Source: Labilibaculum antarcticum (GTDB lineage Bacteria > Bacteroidota > Bacteroidia > Bacteroidales > Marinifilaceae). Taken from it: 64,000 nucleotides of DNA. Below, piece by piece: positions 14,472 through 19,550 of the stretch (its first letter is position 1; each line of letters begins with the position of its first letter). Below the pieces are notes generated by a model. That model had not been told where the DNA came from, made no database searches, and saw only the letters and a list, made by a program, of their open reading frames with translations. The stretch is from NCBI RefSeq assembly GCF_002356295.1, contig NZ_AP018042.1, positions 5,426,361-5,490,360 of the forward strand, in the 5' to 3' direction. The translations under genes and the position numbers were made by a program.

Positions 14472-15209
14472 CTATTCTTTTTCTGAGAGCTCTTCTGATT
14501 TTCGACTGCCTCTCATCTTTTGCGACATTTCCAATTTAAGAATGCTCTCGTTAATTTTTTTAATGATTGAATCTAGGTCACCACCCGCACTTATGCTCGA
14601 CATAGATTCCATATATTTAAACATTCCGTCTAAACTTTCTGCAAGATTATTACGAAACAGTTTGGTATCGTTCTCTCGTTTTTGATCAGCATTTTTATCA
14701 CTTCGTTCATCAATCGATTCAATAAGCGCTTCCATAGCCACTCGCACATTATCAACAATCTCTTTAATACCCAATTTCTCGATAGCCGCTTTTGCCTCAG
14801 GAATAGTTTCGCAATCGGCTAAAAACATTTTGCCTTTTGCATTTTGCTCCTGCCAGCTTTCCTGATGCAGGTTATAGCCATGCGTTTTACTCAAATTAAT
14901 TAAAACACCTGCAGCCGTGCGCTTTTCCTCATCCGGATGCAACTCGTAACACAAACAAATCAATTTAAAAGCCCGCCAGGCATTATTAAAATACTTGTCG
15001 GCAAGCTCGGCTCCTGCAGTTTCGCTTACCGTACTCAGTTTATTCAACTGCCCAACCAAATTACCCAAACCGGTTTCAACACCAATATAAAATCCAGGAA
15101 TACCAAGCCCTACCCAATCGTACCCTTTTGTGATTTTAAGAACATCGTATCCAAGCGATACAAACTCCGCATTTCTGAATCTACTTTCACTAAAGCCTTC
15201 AATTTTCAT
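14472..15209 (-). CDS. DUF6261-like protein of unknown function
   Basis: This 245-residue mostly helical protein starts at the ATG at 15209 (MKIEGFSESRFRNAEF); the open frame extends upstream without a better start. The opening, the repeated Asn/Gly-rich turn NAWRAFKLICLCYELHPDEE and the line of helices match what I recall of the DUF6261 family, found only in Bacteroidota and uncharacterised. No signal peptide or membrane helix is seen. The gene is flanked downstream by a terminator and upstream by an exactly periodic hairpin repeat array. Function unknown. Confidence 0.75.
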   Translation of the reverse strand: MKIEGFSESRFRNAEFVSLGYDVLKITKGYDWVGLGIPGFYIGVETGLGNLVGQLNKLSTVSETAGAELADKYFNNAWRAFKLICLCYELHPDEEKRTAAGVLINLSKTHGYNLHQESWQEQNAKGKMFLADCETIPEAKAAIEKLGIKEIVDNVRVAMEALIESIDERSDKNADQKRENDTKLFRNNLAESLDGMFKYMESMSSISAGGDLDSIIKKINESILKLEMSQKMRGSRKSEELSEKE

Positions 15210-15327
15210 TTTTTTACAATTTAATATTCGACAAATAATCTTCAATTCAATAAGTATAAGCAGCAAACCAATACACGATACCCTCTTCTGCTTTGCTCAA
15301 GATCGCCATTTTTATAACGATGAAGCT

Positions 15328-15600
15328 TTCGCACGCGAGCGATGTTGATTTCTTGGTGCCGAAAGCCTCTTCGCTCCAAGCGGATTGCTCCATTTTTATG
15401 GCAAAAGACCCTTCGCATTGGTGCGAAACAGTTTCCCTGATAAAAAACAAGCCATCGCACAGCTAAAAAACCTTCTTTTTTATGCCGGAGAAGCCTTCGC
15501 TCCAAAGCGATTAAGCTCTCAGCATGAGGAAATAGCCTTCGCTCCCTGCGAATGACTCCCTTTTTATGCCGGGGAAGCCTTCGCTCCAAAGCGAAACAGT
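15328..15600. repeat. Seven-unit degenerate tandem repeat, exact 42-bp period
   Basis: The core TTCGC recurs at 15328, 15370, 15412, 15454 (ATCGC), 15496, 15538 and 15580, always exactly 42 nt apart. Each core usually opens a short hairpin such as TTCGCTCCAAAGCGAA, and cores are separated by variants of TTTTTATGCCGGAGAAGCC. Because 42 is 14 codons, minus-strand frames stay open as 14-residue repeats (ERRLPRHKKGVIRR-like), but no ATG start exists in that frame. I annotate it as DNA repeat rather than gene. Confidence 0.8.
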
Positions 15601-16340
15601 CACCAGCATCATGAAAAGCCTATAAACATTAGCATTTCTTAGTTTGGACATAAACTGATGCCCCTCGCTGATGATGATTGCTGCTGTCATCCTCCCCAAC
15701 TTCCTCTACTCCTACTTTTAGTGAAACAAATGCCTCGGCCGAGTCATTCTTTTTAACAAAACCATTCCTAAGTTATGAATAAATTAATAAACAATAAAAA
15801 TCTTAACTGAAGTTTTTTACAATTACAGCCCAACTATTATGTAGTTACTTGGCAGAAATTGTAATAAACATGCGCTTTCGCGGTTGTGAAAAAAAAATTG
15901 CATTTATTTTATTTTTACGGTTAAACGGATGCAAAATCATAAAACAGGAATAATGAACAATGAGCTTCAGTAAGTGAATCAATTAAGCTGACTAACAAAC
16001 ACATTTGGCCAAGCAACACAATTTATGCATGCATATACAAAACCAACAACACCTGCAACAAGCACAAACAGCCATTTAACCGACAATTAATTATAAGGAT
16101 TGATTCTAACAAGGAAAAACACCCTCCTTTTTTATTTTTATGCTTACATTCGGAATTCAATTGTGAAAACTCATTGTTTTTAACAGACAGTGAGGTTTTA
16201 TCGCTTTATTAAGAAACAACTAAACACATATAAATAGGTATTAGAAACACGCCTTTTTAATAGATAAAAGAGAAGAAACACTATTATTGATGCCTATTGT
16301 TACCGTCAACCAAAATCAAACAAAAAAATAGAACAGCAAA
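15601..16340. other. Long intergenic region, no gene seen
   Basis: About 740 nt separate the hairpin array from the AAA ATPase gene. A 10-bp perfect palindrome CTCGGCCGAG lies at 15734-15743. The rest is A+T-rich with frequent stops in all frames and no recognisable RNA gene. A promoter for the ATPase must lie here, but I cannot point to a consensus box. Confidence 0.5.
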
Positions 16341-18896
16341 ATGGCTTCAACAACAACTAATAAAAAAGAAATAGTAGATTTTCTATGGGAATGGGCGGAA
16401 ACCCATAATGATTGGGGAAAGCTTCTTATAAGTGAGATTGTAACAACAGAAAACAATCTTTCAATAACAGAAAGAGAATCAGTTTTAAATTACTTTTTGC
16501 AATCCATAAGTTTACATTCAGGATTACCTGCTATTGCTATAACAAAACCGACTTATACTCCAACCAATAAGAAGATTGAATTAGAGTCATTAACGAACGT
16601 TACTGGTGTTAATAGACTTGCCAAAAATCAAACTTTAAAATTTAGTGATAATTTAACTGTAATATTTGGGGAAAATGGTACAGGTAAAACTGGTTATGGA
16701 AGAATATTGAAAAATCTCGGTTTCAGTTATGATGATAACAACACAATTCTATCAAATATATTTGGAACTTCTAAATCCAAGACAGCAACTATAAAATATA
16801 AAGCTAATAACTTGCCAGATACATTTGATTGGGATGGTACTAATAAAAATAATGATTTAGAGAGTATTTCAGTTTTTAACAACAACTGTGTACAGATTTC
16901 TCTTTCAGACAGACAGTTAATTGTGTCGCCAATAGGATTTCATTTATTTAGTATTGTTATCTCAGAATTAAATGAACTAACTACCTTATTAAGGAACAAG
17001 ATAACCCAATATCCTACAACAATAAATTTTGCGGGGAACTTAAGCACAGGAAGTCCTCAGCAAATTTATATTTCATCACTTTCATCTAAATCAACAGAAC
17101 AAAAATTAATTGAATTATCAACAATTACTTCAGAACAAGAGCAGGCTTTAAAAGTCTATGAAGAAGAATTATCTAATTTAAATAAAAAGCTTCTAGAAGC
17201 TGTAATTCAAAATTTAAATGCTTCAATAACGGAAATAGGTTCTCTAGTAATTAAAATAGAGAATGCTAAAAAGGTTATAACTAAAGAAAATTGTCAAGCA
17301 ATTGTCAATTTTAACAAGCAAATATTAGTCTTAGAAAATAAAGCTCAAACAGGGATAAAGGAAATAGCTGAAACAAACGGAATAGAATTTTATGAAACAA
17401 CGCAATTTAGTTTATTTATTAAGGCTGCTGAAAATTATATAAAAATTCTCAGTAAGCCTGAATATCCCAATAGTGAAAATGTTTGTGTTTATTGTAATCA
17501 ATCCCTTGATGATACTGCCAAAACTCTACTAAGTAGTTATAGAACGTTGCTTAATGATAAAACTCAGGAGAACTTATCTCAATTGAAACTTCAAAAAAAC
17601 AACTTAATAGCAAAAGTTACTCAGATTGATACGAATATAAAATTTCATCAAGCAACTATTGGCCTAGATACAAATCAAAAGCCAATACAACCACCTGAAC
17701 TTTTAGAGTACAACAGAGTTTTAGAAGGACTGAAAACTAAATTTGCTACTGATGACATTAAAGAGACTACGGAATTTAATTTTGAATATCAGACCTATAT
17801 AGACTTTCTTAACAATAAAAAGGATGATCTAAAAAGAATTTTAACTACGAAGAAAACTCTATCATCTGATCTTGCAACGAAAGAAAAAGATCTGAAAAGT
17901 AAGATTGCTGAATTGAAAGATCGAAAACAACTTTCTCAAAAAGTTACAGAAATAAAAATAGCTATTTCTAACATGAAAATTGTTTCTAAGTTAAATTCCA
18001 AGTTAGGCAGTTTTAGTACAAATTCAATAAGTAGGAAAACAACAGAAGCAAGGGATTTATTAATTAAATCAAACTTTGATAAAATATTCAAAGAAGAATT
18101 AAAAGCTTTTAGGAAAGCGCATATTAATATTGATTTAAGTTTTGGTACAGATAGAGGTAAATCTAAAGTTTCACCAAAAATTAATACTCATAATCTAACT
18201 GATATACTAAGCGAAGGAGAGCAAAAAGCCATTGCTTTGGCAGAATTTTTAACAGAATTACAACTTGATAATATTATTGCTCCTGTTATTTTTGACGACC
18301 CTGTTAACAGTCTTGATCATCATATAATTGATGATGTTGCTAGGCGATTAATTAAGCTTTCAAAAGATAGACAAGTTGTAATATTTACACATAGTGTACT
18401 TTTATTCAATAGCTTCTTGTTTTTCAGTAAACAGCAAACTTTTAAAGCTCTTAAGTATAAATTTTATAATACAAAAAATGAATATGATGAAACAGGATTT
18501 GTTTCTGAAGCTGAGGAAGAAATAAATAAGGTGAAAAGTTATATTTCAAAAATTAATCTGATTATAAACAATACACCTAAAGATCGTCCTGAAGCAGACG
18601 TTGCAGAAGATGGCTATGGGTATCTACGCTCTGCAATTGAACTATTAATAGAATATGAAATTTTTCAAGGCACTGTAAAAAGGTATCAAAAAAATGTTGC
18701 CTTAACTCAGTTTGTTAAAATTGATGGTGAGTTGATTAATACTCACAAAGATAATTTGAATGAAATTTTTGAACGAAGTTGTGGTTATATCAAAGGGCAT
18801 AGTAATCCAACAGCTATTTTCAATCCCCCGACTTTAAGGGAATTGAAATCTGATTTTGGAGACTTTGAAATTATAAGGAAAGCTTTTTTAAATTAA
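16341..18896 (+). CDS. RloC/PrrC-like AAA_13 ATPase, candidate anticodon-nuclease defence protein
   Basis: This 851-residue Rad50/SMC-like ATPase has Walker A GENGTGKT (110-117), long coiled coils (about 260-440 and 480-560) bent around a CxxC zinc-hook-like motif VCVYC (C382, C385), an ABC signature LSEGEQKA (623-630), Walker B VIFDDPVNSLD (649-659) and H-loop THS (683-685). The C-terminal 100 residues carry R763-xxx-E767 (YLRSAIE) and H820 (IKGHSNP), in the same order as the Arg-Glu-His catalytic triad of the PrrC/RloC anticodon nucleases. RloC cleaves tRNA under DNA stress and phage attack. No hsd restriction genes adjoin, which fits RloC rather than PrrC. The nuclease role is inference from motif order. 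Confidence 0.8.
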   Translation: MASTTTNKKEIVDFLWEWAETHNDWGKLLISEIVTTENNLSITERESVLNYFLQSISLHSGLPAIAITKPTYTPTNKKIELESLTNVTGVNRLAKNQTLKFSDNLTVIFGENGTGKTGYGRILKNLGFSYDDNNTILSNIFGTSKSKTATIKYKANNLPDTFDWDGTNKNNDLESISVFNNNCVQISLSDRQLIVSPIGFHLFSIVISELNELTTLLRNKITQYPTTINFAGNLSTGSPQQIYISSLSSKSTEQKLIELSTITSEQEQALKVYEEELSNLNKKLLEAVIQNLNASITEIGSLVIKIENAKKVITKENCQAIVNFNKQILVLENKAQTGIKEIAETNGIEFYETTQFSLFIKAAENYIKILSKPEYPNSENVCVYCNQSLDDTAKTLLSSYRTLLNDKTQENLSQLKLQKNNLIAKVTQIDTNIKFHQATIGLDTNQKPIQPPELLEYNRVLEGLKTKFATDDIKETTEFNFEYQTYIDFLNNKKDDLKRILTTKKTLSSDLATKEKDLKSKIAELKDRKQLSQKVTEIKIAISNMKIVSKLNSKLGSFSTNSISRKTTEARDLLIKSNFDKIFKEELKAFRKAHINIDLSFGTDRGKSKVSPKINTHNLTDILSEGEQKAIALAEFLTELQLDNIIAPVIFDDPVNSLDHHIIDDVARRLIKLSKDRQVVIFTHSVLLFNSFLFFSKQQTFKALKYKFYNTKNEYDETGFVSEAEEEINKVKSYISKINLIINNTPKDRPEADVAEDGYGYLRSAIELLIEYEIFQGTVKRYQKNVALTQFVKIDGELINTHKDNLNEIFERSCGYIKGHSNPTAIFNPPTLRELKSDFGDFEIIRKAFLN

Positions 18897-19031
18897 AACT
18901 TTAAAAAGCAACCAATAATTGCCAAGTGGCCGATAAATTGAAAGGTTGTTGCCCAAATTAAATTCAGTACAACTAGATATTGAAAGCAACCAACAAGAAC
19001 CAAATACCATCTACTAACCATCAGTAAACAA

Positions 19032-19550
19032 ATGAAAAAACTCAGTTTTAAACAAAAAATCCTATTTGCTTTGTTCACAGGCATAGTCTATGGTGGCATC
19101 CTCCTGCTTGTGCATGATGCATTCGATTTTTACACCATCAGGAGTATGGCATTTCAGACTCTGTTTTTCACGATACTCTTTGGAATAGGCTTTCCATTTG
19201 TAATGGAAAAATTGGCGCCAAAAATGCTTTCTAAAGTTAAAAATCCAGAAATGGATGAGAATGAAACAATTATTTATGAAGATGGTGCCAGTTTGTTTCG
19301 TGGGGCTTGGGTGACTGTTGGCGGCAAGTTATTTTTAACCAATAAACGATTGATTTTCAACGCTCACAAATACAATCTCCAAAAAGGGGAAACCTCTATT
19401 GACTTAAACGATATAACAGAAATCAGTAAAAGAATAACAAGCCGTATTGTTGACAATGGTTTGCAAATAGCAACAAAAGACAATTCGAAATACGATTTGG
19501 TTCTGAATAATCGGGATGAATGGATTGAACAATTACAAAAGAAAAAATAA
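19032..19550 (+). CDS. Membrane protein with GRAM/PH-like domain
   Basis: This 172-residue protein has two N-terminal transmembrane segments (about 8-28 and 37-57), then a soluble part that reads like a GRAM domain: NETIIYEDGASLFRG, GGKLFLTNKRLIFNAH, IDLNDITEISKR, IATKDNSKYDLVL and WIEQL. GRAM/PH-like domains bind lipids or peptides at membranes. It is the first gene of a tight four-gene run with the M15 peptidase and two coiled-coil proteins; the next ATG follows its stop after 3 nt. The biological role is unknown. Confidence 0.75.
   Translation: MKKLSFKQKILFALFTGIVYGGILLLVHDAFDFYTIRSMAFQTLFFTILFGIGFPFVMEKLAPKMLSKVKNPEMDENETIIYEDGASLFRGAWVTVGGKLFLTNKRLIFNAHKYNLQKGETSIDLNDITEISKRITSRIVDNGLQIATKDNSKYDLVLNNRDEWIEQLQKKK

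Follow-up and report, generated by a model that had tools for sequence, protein, structure and literature searches.

The open reading frame at 16341-18896 of the window, the whole stretch of 64,000 nucleotides from Labilibaculum antarcticum that was analysed here, raises the question whether it encodes a solitary suicide enzyme of phage defence, equipped with the ATPase, zinc hook and candidate nuclease triad that a sequence-only reading had attributed to it.

Domain organization and conserved residues

The reading frame starts with ATG on the plus strand. Its parts are given below in window positions, all on the plus strand.

16341-18896: RloC-like ABC-ATPase / zinc-hook / putative R-E-H effector protein of 851 aa; PADLOC PDC-S06 (PDLC04888), long clade
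16341-16565: N-terminal extension, about residues 1-75 (~80 residues), with the near-invariant W25
16668-16688: Walker A GENGTGK, residues 110-116
17484-17495: hook motif CVYC, residues 382-385, with C382 and C385
18207-18221: ABC signature LSEGE, residues 623-627
18285-18317: Walker B / D-loop VIFDDPVNSLD, residues 649-659
18384-18395: switch-His motif FTHS, H684
18408-18893: C-terminal stretch modelled with AlphaFold2, residues 690-851, predicted to be helical after a β-hairpin
18627-18641: R763-x3-E767, on the longest predicted helix of the effector domain
18798-18800: H820, four residues past the end of the next long predicted helix

The ABC-type ATPase motifs, the CxxC and the three residues R763, E767 and H820 named in the sequence-only reading are all found where it had placed them. 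The CxxC has the form CVYC and sits between Walker A (residue 110) and the signature (residue 623), that is inside the insert which splits the ATPase, and the triad is spaced R763-x3-E767-x52-H820.

To count the occurrence of these residues we used a family profile built from 18 sequences (the window protein and 17 relatives). The profile search led to 138 open reading frames, 97 of which passed a filter on score, length and coverage; 94 of these are distinct, including the query, which leaves 93 full-length relatives. The 41 frames left out are fragments, split copies, short-clade proteins and a mini-gene from the same genus (genome G002) that is described below. C382, C385, E767 and H820 are invariant in all 93 relatives. 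R763 is kept in 91 of them (Ser in L094 and L112), R781 in 88; in the N-terminal extension, W25 is present in 92. This conservation across the family is an argument that the motifs are more than chance. The coiled-coil arms that RloC has on both sides of its CX2C were looked for with a simple heptad test. The segments 407-448, 477-518 and 491-532, C-terminal of the hook, beat their shuffles with values of 0.006-0.044 that are uncorrected for about 58 segments; N-terminal of the hook the best segment (281-322, 0.088) does not.

Family and distribution

The family is already catalogued, because the window protein scores 1334 bits against model PDLC04888 of the PADLOC candidate PDC-S06 (residues 1-850 against model positions 1-850 of 851). 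This candidate for single-gene phage defence, for which PADLOC gives no mechanism, is matched over its full length and no difference was detected; other models of the same candidate cover the short RloC clade. In Pfam, AAA_13 is matched by residues 379-732.

The nearest relatives among 80 loci from a scan of species genomes are from two Bacteroidota (L041 and L043, 54-55% identical to the window protein), while a spirochaete protein (L042) is 43% identical. Occurrence within the phylum is patchy: 15 of 395 genomes match at E 0.001, the genome of origin being among the matches listed. Among eight other genomes of the genus that were searched, only G002 matched, at both ends of the gene. Of 179 plasmid records with a match, 53 span 80% or more of the protein, and the carriers among the records inspected belong to Actinomycetota, Bacillota, Pseudomonadota and Bacteroidota. 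Phage records gave no match at E 1e-5 and viral contigs none in a scan with the single sequence; the alignment-based scan of viral contigs led to 28 loci.

Relation to RloC, PrrC and Rad50

RloC has been defined by ABC motifs, a CX2C insert, the pattern R-X3-E-X36-52-H and a length of 658-897 residues (PMC2610378). The window protein lies within this definition of 2008 in its ABC motifs, its CX2C insert, its triad spacing (x52) and its length (851 aa). For comparison we assembled a set that we take as RloC sensu stricto, 27 distinct proteins from 47 loci with 722-778 aa, which were picked by ATPase motif patterns and not by the triad. R-x3-E, Ser-His and CxxC each occur in 27 of 27, and the P-loop lies near residue 30 in 25 of 27. 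Four members of this set that were scanned (L143, L144, L146 and L147) match other PDC-S06 models and the PADLOC model of PrrC; the latter is matched by six of the eight short proteins scanned. The distance between E and H falls into two classes without overlap, 48-53 for the query family (94 sequences) and 36-44 for the RloC proteins (27). As the published range of X36-52 spans both of them, it suggests that the RloC proteins of 2008 already included members of the long clade. The RloC of G. kaustophilus (R692/E696/H737, spacing 40; PMC2610378) would fit the short clade by its E-H spacing.

If full-length profiles are compared by hhalign, the query family matches RloC sensu stricto over residues 375-716 (Prob 99.8, E 4e-28), a part that comprises the hook, the second arm and the C-lobe and stops ahead of the effector motif. 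PrrC is matched over residues 560-698 (Prob 96). With profiles of the effector domain the picture differs. The query family reaches Prob 0.2 against RloC (eight shuffles 0.05-0.84), Prob 0.8 against PrrC, which exceeds the shuffles (eight, 0.05-0.26) and is far from significant, and Prob 1.8, calculated without shuffles, against 41 motif-bearing RloC rows, whereas RloC and PrrC find each other with Prob 89 (E 2e-6). The short best alignments pair R with R and E with E in the case of RloC, and His with His in the case of PrrC, which is a hint below significance. The window protein is thus RloC-like and belongs to the long clade, but it is not an RloC in the strict sense. The earlier assignment holds for the ATPase with its CxxC hook and for a near-invariant R-x3-E...H within the published range; it does not extend to profile homology of the nuclease domain.

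Compared to RloC, the family shares the ABC motifs, the CX2C insert, the triad pattern, the length range and the homology of ATPase and hook, and differs by the N-terminal extension of about 80 residues, by the E-H spacing (48-53 instead of 36-44) and by an effector domain beyond significant profile detection. PrrC has in common with the family the order R-x3-E...H and the homology of the ATPase C-lobe, and some relatives lie in type I restriction-modification (R-M) operons, one of them beside prrC itself. In contrast to the window protein PrrC is short and has E-x31-H: in our set of 12 proteins the length is 357-416 aa and R-x3-E-x31-H occurs in 12 of 12, this being the spacing of E. coli PrrC (PMC2610378), which is described there as having no zinc hook. 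Rad50/SbcC has, like the window protein, an ABC head interrupted by an insert that carries a hook; it is described as being without the C-terminal R-E-H region (PMC2610378). Rad50 heads are the best solved-structure profile matches to the window protein; the best 60 of 75 matches are ABC-type or defence ATPases, with no PrrC or RloC entry among them. APECO1_4465 has been reported as a further ABC-HEPN group (PMC3710099).

Predicted structure of the effector domain

Residues 690-851 were modelled by AlphaFold2 together with 69 relatives (pLDDT 91, pTM 0.80). The model consists of a β-hairpin, a helix, the long helix that carries R763 and E767, a short helix followed by a second long one, and a last helix, with H820 four residues beyond the end of the second long helix. 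Residues 580-738 of an RloC protein (L147 with 30 relatives) gave a model of lower confidence (pLDDT 79, pTM 0.74) with a β-hairpin, a helix, the R/E helix, a helix of 12 residues, a helix and two more; the His follows four residues after a helix, in a stretch (111-119) with pLDDT below 50. One must keep in mind that the triad is conserved by construction in the alignment behind this RloC model, because of 57 rows the 26 without the aligned motif were removed and 31 used (in a wider set of 73, R is aligned in 68 proteins, E in 67 and H in just 42). Compared without superposition, the two models arrange their elements in a similar sequence and have R, E and H in equivalent positions, with inter-motif helices of unequal length. 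The effector domain of the window protein is therefore predicted to be similar to that of RloC in element order and in the placement of R, E and H. Homology to the RloC/PrrC anticodon nuclease domain would go further and is not borne out by the profiles, the agreement being confined to these features of the AlphaFold models.

A Foldseek search of the 690-851 model against the PDB led to nothing at E 0.3 or better. The first 20 rows include chains labelled HEPN or MntA-HepT (2hsb, 3o10, 7bxo, which we take to be HepT, 6m6w and 8xeh), all with E of 0.78 or higher, and a Csx1-Crn2 chain is also found among the weak matches. The RloC model had no match below E 1.9; an AbiV chain, presumably HEPN, is found at rank 11 with E 3.9. 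As neither model has a significant match, the two effector domains are not tied to each other via a common solved structure. A fold search of BFVD gave nothing below E 0.2, and among the matches listed for 70 effector domains against Pfam at E 0.1 no family matches more than two. The canonical HEPN motif Rx4-6H is missing in the window protein, which has R812-x7-H820 instead; an Arg separated from the triad His by four to six residues occurs in 35 of 94 family sequences. The nuclease domains of RloC and PrrC have been classified as HEPN (PMC3710099).

A variable slot in the genus

The gene stands out from its surroundings by composition, as had been claimed: with a GC content of 0.290 (GC3 0.183) it ranks lowest among the 34 ORFs of the window that are 200 aa or longer, and hence richer in A+T than its neighbours. 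It was also thought to stand between long spacers, which applies upstream (15266 to 16341, ~1.07 kb) but not downstream (135 bp). The borders of its position are:

14472-15266, minus strand: conserved left border gene (DUF6261)
16157-19031, no strand: cargo segment; on the left, 16156 is the last position of flank homology to G004, G006 and G007
19032-19550, plus strand: conserved right border gene (GRAM domain), ATG at 19032

On the right side homology resumes at 19030 (G004, G007) or 18996 (G006), beside the ATG of the GRAM gene. The GRAM gene occurs in six of eight other genomes of the genus, and four of these have both borders on the compared stretch. All four differ from the window in the content of the slot. 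G004 carries a DUF5041 gene, G006 a DUF6119 gene and a DEDDh exonuclease-BRCT gene with a match to PADLOC PDC-S48 (L037:8970-9881, minus strand), and G007 another DUF6119 gene. In G002 we find an in-frame gene of 154 aa (L034:8924-9388, minus strand) in which residues 1-28 of the ATPase protein (75% identical) are fused in frame to an effector domain; R, E and H are kept, the ATPase and the hook are missing, and on the left side the homology reaches 75 bases into the window gene. The borders together with this mini-gene indicate that the slot is genuine and that one or more further lineages of the genus had an allele of the gene. The different cargo which relatives carry in this position agrees with the transfer-like setting that had been proposed, and the slot supplies ready-made comparisons within one genus.

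We also considered whether effector genes commonly stand alone in this family and rejected the idea. Matches occur in 14 of 395 genomes of the phylum, and the short open frames among them (G148, G255, G304, G332 and G418) resemble fragments or split copies; the one in-frame mini-gene seen is that of G002. Its effector is ~41% identical to that of the window protein and 58-69% identical to that of L041. In the ATPase tree the window protein joins L041 (99/97). Its effector has higher identity to those of L043 and L042 than to that of L041, and the effector tree makes the mini-gene the partner of L041 (100/100). A topology test of the effector rejected a group of window protein and L041 alone and kept the window protein, L041 and the mini-gene together (AU p 0.138). 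Swapping of effectors between alleles is not claimed, given that the latter grouping is tolerated.

In the left intergenic flank (15242-15589), and at the same place in other genomes of the genus, there are repetitive-looking ORFs; Tandem Repeats Finder reported no array for this flank.

Restriction-modification and BREX context

For the neighbourhood of the family we regarded 104 loci (9 plasmid, 79 genome and 16 viral). At least 17 of them have an R-M, BREX or PrrC gene in the examined flank and 87 do not; the 17 are a lower bound, since genes were detected by their similarity to example proteins taken from the loci themselves, and some contigs are short. In 9 of the 104 the gene abuts an R-M or BREX gene on the same strand within 25 bases. 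The labels of restriction genes were picked by position and then confirmed with Pfam. The gene lies between hsdS and hsdR in L042, adjoins hsdS in L060 and L121, and adjoins a type III-like methylase or restriction gene in L022, L027 and L070. In the PglZ/BrxL loci L052, L053 and L122 it directly follows brxL, and SbcD-like and SbcC-like genes lie further downstream. The IMG/VR contig L121 (5060-14763) has the order hsdM-hsdS-[long-clade gene]-prrC-hsdR on one strand; its prrC matches PADLOC PDLC02360 with E 4.7e-144 and its HsdR carries an EcoR124_C domain. Two ATPase-nuclease genes of the PrrC/RloC type thus occur in one type I R-M locus.

The protein had been called solitary. This holds for the copy in the window, which stands alone, but not for the family with its nine adjoining loci, and elsewhere in the same genome, unlinked and ~2.2 Mb away, lies a type I R-M cluster with matches to hsdM, hsdS and hsdR (G000:C1, near 3.25 Mb). 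Within that cluster (L303:1739-12992) two genes matching PADLOC HEC-06/Orf5/SspE lie between hsdS and hsdR.

Linkage of RloC-type proteins to R-M operons is already in print, with 8 of 72 in PMC2610378 and further cases in a table and the text of PMC3710099, which also mentions Pgl operons in a few instances. In the main text of the BREX paper PMC12839542 the term "RloC" does not occur.

Functional interpretation

We consider it probable that the gene encodes a single-gene abortive-infection protein triggered by DNA, in which an RloC-like switch is combined with an R-E-H RNase. The Rad50/RloC-like ATPase head and the zinc-hook arm would sense a DNA-linked sign of infection, which could be broken or degraded DNA or disabled restriction. 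A rearrangement driven by ATP would then free the C-terminal helical RNase, presumably a metal-independent one, to cut host RNA, most likely tRNA, and translation would stop before the phage multiplies. Precedents come from RloC, whose activity was lost when each of the triad residues was mutated to alanine and deregulated in zinc-hook mutants (PMC2610378), and which responds to DNA double-strand breaks (PMC3874168). The conserved triad and hook, the x52 within X36-52, the hhalign match to RloC, the candidate status in PADLOC, the element order in AlphaFold, the linkage of relatives to R-M, BREX and PrrC genes and the cargo slot argue for abortive infection. Against it stand the lack of a significant effector profile match to RloC/PrrC, of a Foldseek match, of a recurrent Pfam family and, in the window protein, of the HEPN Rx4-6H motif, as well as G002, which keeps the effector without the ATPase, a state not easily reconciled with a toxin that is constitutively active. 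A limited literature search showed no activity data for the long clade.

The same gap between the effector profiles leaves room for the possibility, which we regard as tentative, that an RloC-like switch operates a different effector and that the C-terminal domain cuts mRNA, rRNA or DNA. The disjoint E-H spacing classes as well as the HEPN and Csx1-Crn2 chains among the weak Foldseek matches would agree with this; the R-x3-E...H motif and the element order similar to RloC speak for an RNase of the RloC kind. The neighbourhoods point to yet another role, that of a guardian of restriction, silenced by an R-M complex, which would act in cis in some relatives and in trans here, and fired, like PrrC, if a phage inhibits restriction. 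The relatives adjoining hsdS/hsdR, type III-like or brxL genes and the hsdM, hsdS and hsdR matches in the genome of origin are in its favour, but we find it doubtful in view of the 87 loci without such a gene in the examined flank, even with the 17 as a lower bound, and of the report that inducers of DNA breaks activated RloC in R-M-deficient hosts (PMC3874168). That the protein is an ATPase of DNA repair or SMC-like function with a structural, non-catalytic C-terminal domain is very improbable: Rad50 heads are its best solved-structure matches, but the conserved polar triad, the patchy occurrence, the position in a cargo slot and the linkage to plasmids and R-M/BREX genes all argue against it.

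Returning to the abortive-infection protein, our results suggest that the RloC-like group in PDC-S06 holds at least two clades with a common ATPase and hook, and with effectors that could not be related by profile here. The long clade might even represent a second, separate guard made of ATPase, hook and RNase, with a sensing extension of its own, a diverged or replaced effector and perhaps another RNA target, which would work beside PrrC in one restriction operon and whose reduced derivative, the gene of 154 aa, would modulate or poison the full-length protein; we regard this as rather unlikely. As members of the long clade lie directly beside type I, type III-like and BREX genes and in one case beside PrrC, they are good candidates for the question whether one type of ATPase guards several restriction systems. 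In a limited literature search we saw no description of the split into two clades by effector and spacing, of a long-clade gene beside prrC or of an effector-only allele.

Observations on individual family members

In six loci (L005, L111, L115, L117, L129 and L133) the family gene is present as two ORFs, as if inactivated. A gene of a recombinase family recurs near the ATPase gene in L020, L021, L023, L024, L092 and L099; it overlaps the start of the ATPase gene in L021 and is divergent in L023 and L024. The family member on a plasmid of Staphylococcus epidermidis (L023:2109-7965) lies near qacA/qacR.
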